From NCBI GenBank assembly GCA_028554795.2, contig CM068827.1, positions 137,524,268 through 137,588,267 of the forward strand: a DNA stretch of 64,000 nt, read 5' to 3'. Source of the DNA: Sinohyriopsis cumingii (lineage: Eukaryota > Mollusca > Bivalvia > Unionida > Unionidae). Positions 17,599-43,662 of this stretch are shown piece by piece (the first letter of the stretch is position 1; the number at the start of each line of letters is the position of its first letter). The position numbers were made by a program, and so were the translations under genes. The notes beneath the pieces are model-generated. The model was not told the DNA's origin. It saw only the letters and a program-made list of their open reading frames with translations, and did not search any database.

Positions 17599-18434
17599 TC
17601 AGTCGTCTGCTTCTTTGTCGATAATTCCAAGCTTTTGTCCGAGCCATTTACATTTGGTAACCATCTCGTCTTGCATGAGGGCAAAGCACATAGACATTAT
17701 TGCCATACCGAAGAGGACGTACACCGCGCCAAGAATCAATCTGGCCGCTGCTTGTGGGTCTTCGAAATCCCTGCCTGGAACAACGTCTCCGAATCCAATG
17801 GTGGCAAGAGTGATGAAACAGAAGTATGCCGATTGTAGCATATCCCAGCCCTCCCAAAGACCGAAGAGAACTGATCCACCGAAGATGTAAACACCAATCA
17901 CAATCATCGTGATAGTAAGCGGAACAGTTATCTTTTCATCGCATTCATCGTCGTCATCATCGCTGTCATCGTCTATCATCATCTGCTGATTAATAATAGC
18001 CCTATTTCGACTTGCGAGATCCGCTGGCGTCATGGTCTTGATCTCCAAAGGGACAATCTTGGGTTTTATGCTCGGTGGAGAATCTGGCCTTTGGAGGAAC
18101 AGTTTCTTGTTGTGCTCACTGAAGTTCATAGCCTTCTTGGCAAATTCTGTTTCCATTGGTGCAGACGTGGATAAGATTTTGCACTTCTCAGTATTATTTC
18201 CCTTGGGTTCTTGTGATCCACCATTTATCTGAACTACGGCGTTTTTAAGCTTGTCTCTTTTCTTATTTCGGCAGCAACCGAAGCAGCAGATCTTTGCATA
18301 GACAAAGCGAAAAATGTCGGCGAGGACATCTCCGATGTTGGCCAAACACAGAAGCATTAAGGGAATTCCTAGAACAGCGTACGCTATGCATACCAGACGT
18401 CCCCAAAAAGTTTTAGGGGCAATGTGACCATAAC
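17599..18434 (-). CDS. K2P (TWK-type) potassium channel, distal alternative terminal exon
   Basis: The exon begins after an acceptor (CTTTTGCCTTCAG) and opens with the last two bases of a Gly codon, then YGHIAPKT, completing the first pore motif TIGYG when joined to exon 2. It encodes 277 residues to TGA (17599-17601): TM2 ([20 protein letters not shown]), a Cys/Lys-rich start of the cytosolic loop ([13 protein letters not shown]), a long loop with the acidic run [15 protein letters not shown]3 ([19 protein letters not shown]), second pore [19 protein letters not shown]4 ([19 protein letters not shown]) and a short tail ending KEADD. This makes a background 'leak' K+ channel subunit that works as a dimer in the plasma membrane. 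It differs from the proximal exon by only Glu288 (Asp) and Ala368 (Ser). No exon 1 or 2 accompanies this copy, so it depends on the exons at 42.6-43.7 kb, about 24 kb upstream. Confidence 0.85.
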
Positions 18435-21400
18435 CTGAAGGCAAAAGACAAGGGTATATTAGTTGTTGCTGTATGTCTCGCTGTTGTGATGGTGGCGGTC
18501 ATTGTATTTGTAGTAATAGTAGAAGTCCGTCAAATCTCACTCTTACCTCTATCCCCCAAACCGATATGTAGATGTTGAAGGACGATTGGAAGGTCTTATG
18601 TCACTTATATGTTACCTCCAGGAATATTTGCGACATTTCTGGCCGTAACCAATCGCTGTTCATTTTAGATACTTCAAGACATTTTTCTCGTCTCTTAAAC
18701 TATTGTTTGGTTGTATGGTCCTTTTCATGGACATGCAAAAAACATTTCCAAATCATATCCTACTTTTGATGACATGCAAATCCACATAAAATAAGACAAC
18801 CCTATACCATGTGACCATTTACAATTTGGTAACTACATACAACAGCTACCAAATACCTGAAAGTATCCAAACTATGCGTTCCGGATAGATTTGTATGGAT
18901 CAGAAACATAACATATTTATTAAACAGGTGACACCAGACCTCCAAATCGTCTATCACTATCTGGACAGTATTTGAGGAGGGATATATTTTATGGGACTAT
19001 AGTAGCAGTAGTATCAGTAAAAGTATTGACTGCAAATAATAATAATAATAATAATAATAATAATAATAATAATAATAATATGGAGTAAAGTCGTTTTGTT
19101 GTAGAAAACTTTCGAAAAGAGTCAATATAGTGGAAGTGTAATTTTAAATTTTTTAAGTAATGATAATAGCGACGATGACGACGATGATAATGATGATACA
19201 GGAATAAGAACGAAGCTTCCTTTAAAGAAAAATGCAAGTATTTCAGTACTCCGCTATCCTAATGACGCTTCGCAGGTTCCAACTGGCTGTTCGTACCTGA
19301 CTTAAGATGATGATAATGACGATGATACCCACGACGAAAACAAGCACAATGATTATAATTTTATTAATGACGATCAGTATCGTACTAAGGGGTGCGGGCG
19401 GGCGGTTTTCTCTTGTGCTAGATGTCTTTTGGCGCCAAAAGCCTCGGCGCCAGTGGTCTTGGGACACTAGAACCTCTTTAAACCTTCATCGTCAATCCGG
19501 GCGCCAATTAGCCTTCGTACGCTGCTGACGACGATGATTGTGGACCAAAATCAATTACCATGCCAACAACAGGAATTGCAAAAAACAATTTGATGCGCGT
19601 ATTTCAATATATCTATCAATATTTATATATATTTAAACGCTTTTGAGTTAGTTAGGATCATTAAGTATTCAATCAGTAGATAGTATGCATGACTCTTTGA
19701 TACTTTGGCTATTATGGCGATAACAATTTTTGAGACTACTTAATAGTTATTTATTTATTTATTTATTTATTTATTTATTTATTTATTTACCGTGTTTAGT
19801 GAAGTGTCGAATTTTGAATTGCGGTGAACATTCAAGTTGAATGCACTGAACATAAAAATTGTATCGCATTTAAGTCAGAAAAGCCTTTGTGAATGATCAC
19901 TTCGGCCTTTCATCGTTTATTTCCCCTATGTCAGTGTAAACTTCAAAGCGGCAGCATTCGAACTCAGTGAAATTGACCGGGGTATCTTAACACGGTCCTT
20001 AGAAAATAACCATTTGAGGTAGCAACCCTAACCGCTTAGTAGGAACCTATGTCCGCTTATCATTTTTTCAAAGTTTAATTGTTACCCACCGTCGATCACA
20101 TATTCCTAGCTTCTAAACCTGATTAAATGAATTATTTCCTTGGGATAATTAGGGACCGCTGTCTACGACTGGGCAAATTAAATTAAGGAGTACACTTTAG
20201 AAGGAATTAGACTTTAAAGTGACGACCTTAGTCGAAATTCTTTAGTCTAATATTTCCTGACAGGGGAAAGAATCTTGACTTCGTAGAAACCTACAGGGAA
20301 TTGTGCTTTCCTCTCGTCAAGCAGAAAAGGGACCAGGTGGCAGTCTTGTAAAAAGAAAGACAGGTTTTAGTGCTAGGAGGCACAAGTTCTGAAAGAGAAC
20401 AGCAATAAGGAGAGCAATTTTAGTTTCACGTAATATTTTATTTTTGATTGTTTGTTTTATGCAAATGTCCTTGCTATGCCTAGGTTCCATATTATGTATC
20501 GCTTATACAACTTCATGGAAATGTGCTGATGCTAGTGTTGTCATGCAATTCATTTTAATAAATTGTATGGAAAATGTTGACGCTAGAATTGTTATGCAAT
20601 TTACCGTTTAATTTTACAGTTATTAGTTCATTGGTAGAATTGATTGCACGCGATCCAAATGTTCATGTGTGTAGGATTTCATAAGATTATATGAAATAAC
20701 TTCCTTTGTTTGTTAGGACGATACAGATTACCTTGAGTTAGCGATACATACCTAATTATATCTGATTTTGTAATGTTTGAATAATCTTGTAGGTTAAGGA
20801 GTGTTGTGAGTTACAATTTGTGAATTCATGCAAAATTAATCGAACATTAATAGTACAGTATATGTAATAGAATACGGTATCATTCGATGGACGCTCACGC
20901 GGTAATTTAAGACCTGCCGGTAAAAGCGAGGTCAATGTCTTACCGTACTAAGTCAGAATTTACGCAGTGTGTGGATAGCCAACATGCTCTGAGTAACGTG
21001 AGGGAATTGTATGTACGTCTAGAGACTGGGGTATACAGAAATTTAGGGGTAATATTGTCCTTTAAGGAACAGCTTTCTGGGAGAGAGACGGGACAGACTG
21101 AAGACAGAAGTCTGAGGAATCAGAAGGACGAGGTCAGAATAAAACGACCAGGAAGTCCATGAAGGGACAATGCATAGAGCTTAGGAAGGATGAACTAGGA
21201 GACGTTGATATACGGTCAAGAGAGGAAGGTGATTCAAATCGATCGTGGACATTGCGCTATTTTCACCTCTCGTTATGATGATGAAATAAATCCAAATTGG
21301 ACACTCCTGTTAAATTCTACTGATATAATCTAACTTGAATTGGAATTACCGTTATTAATGTGTTCTGATTAAATTTGTTATTTTCTTGTGAAAGGGGGCT

Positions 21401-21560
21401 CGTATTGCTTTATTTCTTTCAGTATTCTGTTAAAGTTCTATTCTTCTTTCACGCCAGCCGGGCTATAATATAGAGGGAGGTCATCCTCTAGATAACGCCA
21501 GCCAAATCCAATTAACCTGCCCTCTTACAAACAGACGAAACATTACACGCATCTATTTAA
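18435..21560. other. Duplicated intronic/flanking sequence (copy 1), no gene seen
   Basis: It contains an (AAT)n microsatellite at about 19036-19081 and a (TTTA)n microsatellite at about 19743-19790, both shared with copy 2. A 75-codon frame at 20935-21162 is broken by an indel in the paralogue and is judged noncoding. Confidence 0.55.
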
Positions 21561-21564
21561 CATC

Positions 21565-42604: not shown

Positions 42605-42732
42605 CAATGGTGGTTATGACGGTGACAGCAAACATCAGTGCTCCTGGCCATGACCATTCATATTTTGGTCCGTCTGGTTCTCCGTACATATCACAGTCAG
42701 TTCCGTCATAGCCGATGGCCAGTGTATTATTT
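42605..42732 (-). CDS. K2P potassium channel, exon 2 (first pore helix)
   Basis: The acceptor GAAACCTTTCAG ends at 42733 and the donor GTAAGC follows 42605. The exon is 128 nt: one base finishes the Arg codon begun in exon 1, then 42 codons, then one base of the Gly codon finished in the terminal exon. It encodes NNTLAIGYDG, a cap segment rich in acidic and aromatic residues (TDCDMYGEPDGPKYEW) and the first pore helix WPGALMFAVTVITTI. Splitting the TIGYG filter between Ile and Gly with this phase exactly fits both terminal exons. Confidence 0.9.
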
Positions 42733-43318
42733 CTGAAAGGTTTCACTACAATTATTAGAGTGGTCTGCTCTTTATGATATATGCAAACGTTTATGAGAGA
42801 ACGGCGGAAGTTCTTTACATCAATGGTAAAAATCCAGTGTATGTCCCTTGTGTACCTAAAGTTGTAATTTTTCTTCGTGATCAAATTCATTATTAATTAA
42901 ACTGTTTAGGAATCAACCAAAAGAACGTTTTCTTTATGGAAATATGCGAAAAGATCAACGAATAAAATCGAAACAAATTCTAACGACACCTGCAATTTCA
43001 ACACAATCACTAACTGGATCACAAACTTAACATTGTCAATACCCGATTATACAGAAGAGTTATATTTATATGAAACGAATTTTATTTAAAGTGAAACTGT
43101 TGTTCCAGGTGTGATACCAATATCACCTATCAGCTATAACATCCAACGTAGGGACTAAACCATACCCATAATTATATAAGTATTGATTTATACTACCAAA
43201 GATTCTGACTGAACAGCAGATCTCTGGAACAAACTGAACTTCACAGTAAATATTATCTTGATTGCAAATCTTAAATCAATGGTATCTAATCAGCTGATAA
43301 AGTGTCTGCAGAATATAC

Positions 43319-43662
43319 CTGAAAGTCTGCAATACGCTAGTCAGTTGAATCATCATGGCGTCCGTGTCCAAGTTACTGGCCAGAATGACTTTCTTGATGG
43401 AGGCGAGTGTCGTGTTCTGCATATCGTTATATTCTTTCCTGCCCTCAAAACAGATGGTTTCTTCATTGGCTTTCTCTAGATGCTCGAAAATGAAGCCGCC
43501 GGCAACGGTGTACAAAATTACCATGGAACTCAAGCCGATGTGAGAAAACAAGGCTTTCATAACCGTCTTGCAGCACTCTCGACCCCGGCTTTTTGAACCT
43601 TGTTCTTTAGAACCCATGCTTAAATCCTTTGGAACCCTGTATTTATGGTATTGATCAAACAA
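43319..43662 (-). CDS. K2P potassium channel, exon 1 (N-terminus, TM1, cap start)
   Basis: The first Met in frame is at 43662 (MFDQYHKYRV...) and a second at 43617 (MGSKEQ...); either could be the start, giving 435 or 420 residues. The exon encodes a basic N-terminus (SKSRGRECCKTVMK), TM1 (IGLSSMVILYTVAGGFIFEH, about residues 42-61), then the helical extracellular cap (EETICFEGRKEYNDMQNTTL..., with a potential N-glycosylation site NTT). The donor GTATAT follows TTTCAG at 43319, leaving two bases of an Arg codon for exon 2 across an intron of 586 bases. No TATA box or other promoter element could be supported upstream. Confidence 0.88.

Follow-up and report, generated by a model that had tools for sequence, protein, structure and literature searches.

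A two-pore-domain potassium channel gene with two tandem terminal exons in Sinohyriopsis cumingii

The window analyzed here, a stretch of 64,000 nucleotides of Sinohyriopsis cumingii DNA (C4:137524268-137588267), carries on its minus strand a gene for a two-pore-domain potassium (K2P) channel. The gene has a single exon 1, a single exon 2, and two terminal exons of 836 nucleotides (nt) each. This organization had been proposed in an earlier description made from the letters alone (here, the original prediction), and the coordinates, reading phases, and frames of all four exons matched it; the outer bound of 43662 that was given there lies 45 nt ahead of the ATG of exon 1. The parts of the gene are listed below in window positions, with a slash at each splice border.

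43617-43319, minus strand: exon 1, coding part, 299 nt from the ATG; first transmembrane segment (M1) and most of the extracellular cap; donor CAG/GTATAT
42732-42605, minus strand: exon 2, 128 nt; first pore helix up to TTIG; acceptor ctttcag/A, donor CCATTG/GTAAGC
28831-27996, minus strand: proximal terminal exon, 836 nt with the stop codon; YG, M2, linker, M3, second pore (P2), and M4; two Pfam Ion_trans_2 stretches
18434-17599, minus strand: distal terminal exon, 836 nt with the stop codon; the same parts, with TLATIGFGD in P2; two Pfam Ion_trans_2 stretches

The donor of exon 2 (G/GTAAGC) cuts the glycine codon of TIG/YG, and a pyrimidine-rich acceptor ending in cttcag lies ahead of each terminal exon. 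Exon 1 and exon 2 can be joined to either terminal exon in the same phase, which gives a frame of 1263 nt encoding 420 amino acids with zero internal stops, and the terminal exon supplies 277 of the 420 residues, from the first filter to the protein end. With acceptors, frame, and pore motif all intact, the proposal that both terminal exons complete TIGYG in phase was upheld. The two exons differ at 15 of 834 in-frame bases (98.2% identity over 836 sites) and at only two residues, which are D in the proximal versus E in the distal exon within the M2-M3 linker and S versus A just before TIGFGD. No further exon 1, exon 2, or terminal exon was found in the window when the whole protein was used in a tblastn search (E up to 10), and no tRNAs or Rfam families at gathering score were detected in the window.

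The identification of the gene as a K2P gene was also borne out. The spliced 420-amino-acid protein matched PF07885 (Ion_trans_2) in two stretches (E = 3.6e-35), corresponding to two pore modules per subunit, and its best sequence matches in the PDB were KCNK3 (TASK-1; 3e-24), followed by KCNK10, KCNK9, and KCNK2. In the translations a K+-selective filter is present in both pores, as TTIG/YGH in the first and as STIGFGD or ATIGFGD in the second. The position that holds A or S is occupied by T in the five PDB alignments inspected (four of KCNK2 and one of KCNK3). As judged from its translated product, the gene encodes a K2P channel, for which leak conduction is predicted.

Both terminal exons lie within copies of a longer tandem unit, the limits of which are given below together with a repeat that the copies share.

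13340-22460, no strand assigned: copy A of the tandem unit, holding the distal terminal exon (self-BLAST, alignment)
22481-33075, no strand assigned: copy B of the tandem unit, holding the proximal terminal exon (self-BLAST, alignment)
22461-22480, no strand assigned: head-to-tail junction of the copies (ends of the self-BLAST matches, sequence of the unit ends)
19799-21534, no strand assigned: dispersed repeat of ~1.74 kb inside copy A, with its copy B counterpart at ~30183-32133

The copies are collinear and direct and abut within ~20 nt, and the window contains zero N. Because both terminal exons belong to a 9.1- to 10.6-kb segment that is repeated collinearly in tandem, their likeness is not due to chance. 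The unit ends ~9.5 kb short of exons 1 and 2. The event was a tandem partial-gene duplication of ~10 kb that reached well beyond the exon and left exons 1 and 2 single. Duplication of the whole gene was rejected because the unit stops at 33075, while exons 1 and 2 are at 42.6 to 43.6 kb. The original prediction of a duplicated terminal exon thus stands, with the refinement that the duplicated unit is ~10 kb long and the event did not involve the exon only. Outside the coding exon, the copies agree at 87.3% of 7754 aligned sites, a Kimura distance of 0.140. The ~1.74-kb repeat occupies equivalent positions in the two copies and was therefore probably present in the unit before the duplication. 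It has dozens of other copies in the genome, at 80 to 87% identity (best 40 of 4799 candidates scored). This and all further genome searches covered the 2.905-Gb assembly (1138 contigs) and scored the best candidates only. Directly to the left of the unit, at window positions ~11307-13020, lies a dispersed repeat with dozens of copies that are mostly 74 to 84% identical (best 40 of 11898 scored).

Direct head-to-tail copies with sharp ends resemble a falsely retained haplotype, and the arrangement might be an assembly artifact in which two haplotypes of one locus were set in tandem. However, the noncoding DNA of the copies has diverged by 12.6 to 12.7% with dozens of indels, far in excess of ordinary heterozygosity, and no N interrupts the window. 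No near-identical copy of copy A was listed on another contig when all of it was searched in two pieces (best 40 of 4799 and best 40 of 211), and a third, diverged copy is present elsewhere on the same contig. This explanation is hardly credible, and it was rejected because the divergence is too high. The arrangement could also be real but polymorphic for presence and absence, with the distal exon unfixed in the species. This seems very unlikely, as a noncoding distance of 0.14 marks an old duplication, for which a lasting polymorphism is less likely.

The third copy is inverted and lies 0.93 Mb off on the same 149-Mb contig, with homology over about C4:136612563-136620064. It corresponds to the 3' portion of the unit plus the left flank; the order of the 3' flank in the distal copy is preserved in it, and the match runs past the left end of the unit to window position ~10438. 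Its identity to the corresponding sequence is 78 to 85%, compared to 87% between the tandem copies. The exon is represented by a remnant of 150 nt, which is joined directly to the 3' flank; no more of it was found in ~1 kb on the other side, and the genome search listed no other piece. In the 49 readable codons of the remnant, the ratio of nucleotide differences in nonsynonymous codons to those in synonymous codons was 7:2 versus the proximal exon and 8:3 versus the distal exon, whereas the proximal and distal exons differed from each other by 1:3 over the same codons. The third copy decayed while the distal exon did not, and it serves as an internal control.

Over their full length, the proximal and distal exons have 13 synonymous and 2 nonsynonymous differences, with dN values of 0.003 to 0.004 and dS values of 0.055 to 0.078 obtained by three methods. 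These counts were compared to a simulation in which one copy had been free of selection since the duplication (branch distance, 0.07) and gene conversion was assumed to be absent. The simulated free copy acquired a mean of 42 amino acid changes (minimum, 23) and a stop codon in 86% of 5000 runs, and none of the 5000 copies had two or fewer amino acid changes without a stop. When the total was fixed at 15 differences, a free copy was expected to have ~9 nonsynonymous ones, and two or fewer had a P value of 0.00015 (20000 runs). This conditioned test stays valid under recent gene conversion. The substitution counts, which come from one genome, indicate that both terminal exons are under purifying selection, with gene conversion probably contributing in part. 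The neighboring paralogue (C4:137654495-137655313), which is 68% identical, was used as the single outgroup. By this one outgroup the D and the A are ancestral, so that one residue is derived in each copy, and it is the distal exon that retains the ancestral A before the filter. Synonymous sites were saturated versus the paralogue (dS above 2) and were left unpolarized.

A separate pair of exons 1 and 2 for the distal copy had been set beforehand as the evidence that would count against a shared first part. None was found genome-wide with exons 1 and 2 as the query (15 of 15 candidates scored). The matches were the window's own pair, the first half of the paralogue (C4:137665280-137665672), and more distant K2P genes. 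An alternative is that the distal exon is driven by its own promoter or by an unrelated upstream exon and yields a half-channel (M2-P2-M4) or another protein. Such an origin would be in keeping with the intact, constrained open reading frame, with the ~10 kb between the terminal exons that could hold a promoter, and with the blocks of ~95 to 99% identity upstream of both exons (~18782-19082 and 20960-21300). However, no M1-P1-like exon was found between the terminal exons or nearby in the genome, and the block at 20960-21300 belongs to the dispersed repeat. Furthermore, half a K2P channel is not expected to conduct. Thus, it is quite unlikely that the distal exon is expressed in this way.

The two terminal exons are probably functional alternatives of one gene, which would make two channel forms by terminal-exon choice. 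A tandem partial duplication of a ~10-kb segment with the last exon and its flanks would have kept exons 1 and 2 single. The shared first part (M1, cap, and first pore helix to TIG) would be spliced to the proximal exon, ending the transcript, or, when transcription runs past the proximal exon, to the distal exon instead. Each choice would yield a complete channel of 420 amino acids, with products that differ in the E or D of the linker, in the A or S before the second filter, and in their 3' untranslated regions (UTRs). Purifying selection, perhaps with gene conversion, would have kept both exons intact. The anatomy, the phases, and the selection pattern are seen in the sequence, while splicing to the distal exon as an alternative ending and a difference in function between the products are inferred. 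Rather doubtful, but conceivable, is an extension in which exon choice would set a single S/A switch together with separate 3' UTRs, and subunits with different second pores might pair in mixed dimers. At its most extreme, the locus would be modular, and read-through splicing could in principle combine two first halves with three second halves within ~125 kb. The first half of the same-strand upstream paralogue ends at the same TIG/G phase.

Several observations weigh against the use of both exons as alternatives. The predicted spliced products are 99.5% identical over 420 amino acids (two differences), a small basis for selection to maintain both. The distal exon is 24.2 kb from exon 2 and behind a complete terminal exon with potential polyadenylation signals of its own, which would normally be expected to win; an ATTAAA in the proximal copy, ~181 nt past the stop, is aligned with an AATAAA in the distal copy, a difference too small to count for either side. 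Compared to the tandem copies, the third copy shows somewhat greater divergence and so had a longer time to decay. In addition, divergence between the copies is patchy, with a variance 2.8 times the binomial expectation among 77 noncoding 100-site windows (a value reached in 0 of 5000 permutations), and the first 289 nt of the exon are identical between the copies, as part of an identical run of 295 nt (18440-18146). Gene conversion has probably acted, which would explain part of the exon identity.

Other features also bear on conversion. Codons 1 to 95 of the exon are free of the 13 synonymous differences (P = 0.003). A pure (AAT)n tract of 46 nt, (AAT)15, has the same length in both copies (19035-19080 and 29421-29466) inside a block of ~95 to 99% identity. 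This equality, despite a noncoding difference of ~13%, suggests local gene conversion. The identical run in the exon could alternatively reflect local constraint on its synonymous sites. The main rival to functional alternatives is a distal exon that is left over, either never transcribed or never spliced, and overwritten repeatedly by conversion from the proximal exon. The patchy divergence, the identical start of the exon, the skewed synonymous differences, and the (AAT)n tract speak for it. However, the 13 synonymous versus 2 nonsynonymous differences have accumulated since any conversion, when a free copy predicts ~9 nonsynonymous changes in 15, and the identical run begins 6 nt ahead of the exon border, as under selection, instead of at a random place. 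Therefore, a leftover refreshed by conversion seems unlikely.

Among 81 matches in the genome, 20 K2P-type terminal exons, defined as single open frames with two pore-module matches, were counted by eye. Of these, 17 could be paired with a first half in the same orientation on their contig, none was found for the distal exon of the window, and two were left unresolved (C192 and C2:57085740). The 17 include two loose pairings, C19:18902560 (~130 kb, 37% like the query) and C14:24295417 (~97 kb, 67%). Since 17 of 18 resolved terminal exons have a first half, the idea that K2P genes of this genome commonly have tandem terminal exons was rejected. Two clusters of three K2P genes each, C14 at 9.497 to 9.552 Mb and C7 at 78.442 to 78.515 Mb, have a separate first half for each terminal exon and seem to have arisen by whole-gene duplication in tandem. 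A motif search made the border of the first half visible for four of these six genes, all of which end in ...IG with a GT donor. Elsewhere on C14, a K2P first-half exon on the plus strand (C14:17285127-17285417), 87% like the C14 query, has no terminal exon close by among the matches listed, and it is the mirror image of the case in the window.

Other genes are already known to have tandem duplicated terminal exons, in some cases with transmembrane parts among the segments exchanged. Some of these, such as Drosophila pip and PGRP-LC, code for proteins that are not channels. In the oysters Crassostrea virginica and C. gigas, the terminal exon 10 of the AOX gene is tandem duplicated, and the isoforms have been shown in mRNA (PMC5589949). 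As in the oyster gene, both endings of the mussel K2P gene would give proteins of the same size, and the second (distal) exon, which is the more conserved one in AOX (PMC5589949), here keeps the ancestral pore-helix residue. Unlike the situation here, with 277 residues and 98.2% identity, exon 10 of AOX encodes 41 amino acids and its copies are 63.5 to 65.9% alike; in addition, one AOX mRNA form contains both exons, and the AOX isoforms were seen in mRNA, whereas the isoforms here are predicted from DNA (PMC5589949). The unc-49 gamma-aminobutyric acid (GABA) receptor gene of Caenorhabditis elegans likewise has a shared N-terminal (extracellular) block that is spliced to alternative 3' blocks with transmembrane segments. 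However, unc-49 has three exon blocks that give distinct subunits of a ligand-gated receptor, in contrast to the near-identical single-exon endings of a K+ channel (PMC6920096). In Drosophila, the tandem homologous terminal exons of pip and the alternative 3' variable regions of PGRP-LC are similar to the present case in that one is used per transcript, but pip has eight clusters, and competing RNA structures have been reported for PGRP-LC (PMC9013439).

Among human tandem duplicated exon substitution events, 77 of 236 swap C-terminal regions, ion channels are enriched, and an ancient origin is given for most; duplicated 3' exons in tandem occur in tropomyosin genes (PMC9741552). The term KCNK is absent from the main text of that article. 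The three isoforms of twk-40 differ at their first exons, not at the last (PMC9049526). No K2P gene with duplicated terminal exons was found in a literature search of open-licence papers that considered the best matches per search. The present gene is set apart by how much of the protein is swapped, by exon copies that are nearly identical although their flanks are old, and by a third copy whose decay serves for comparison.

Two other features of the window lie outside the gene and the tandem unit. Upstream, between the gene and the paralogue, positions 48452-63531 are occupied by a 15-kb array with a unit of ~48 bp (~314 copies by length, 71 to 75% matches). On the minus strand at 4203-5486, RVT_1 (exactly at the Pfam cutoff) and GIY-YIG domains occur in one open frame beside an (AT)n tract, a combination also known from Penelope-like elements.

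Within the closely inspected tandem K2P clusters on C14 and C7 every terminal exon has a first half, and the gene in the window is the exception. The locus allows a clean comparison between two retained copies and a dispersed one that has diverged somewhat further and decayed. Should both endings prove to be in use, this would be the first K2P gene, by the literature searched, with tandem alternative copies of the region from the first filter to the end, and it would be a case in which a partial gene duplication turned into an isoform switch instead of a pseudogene.

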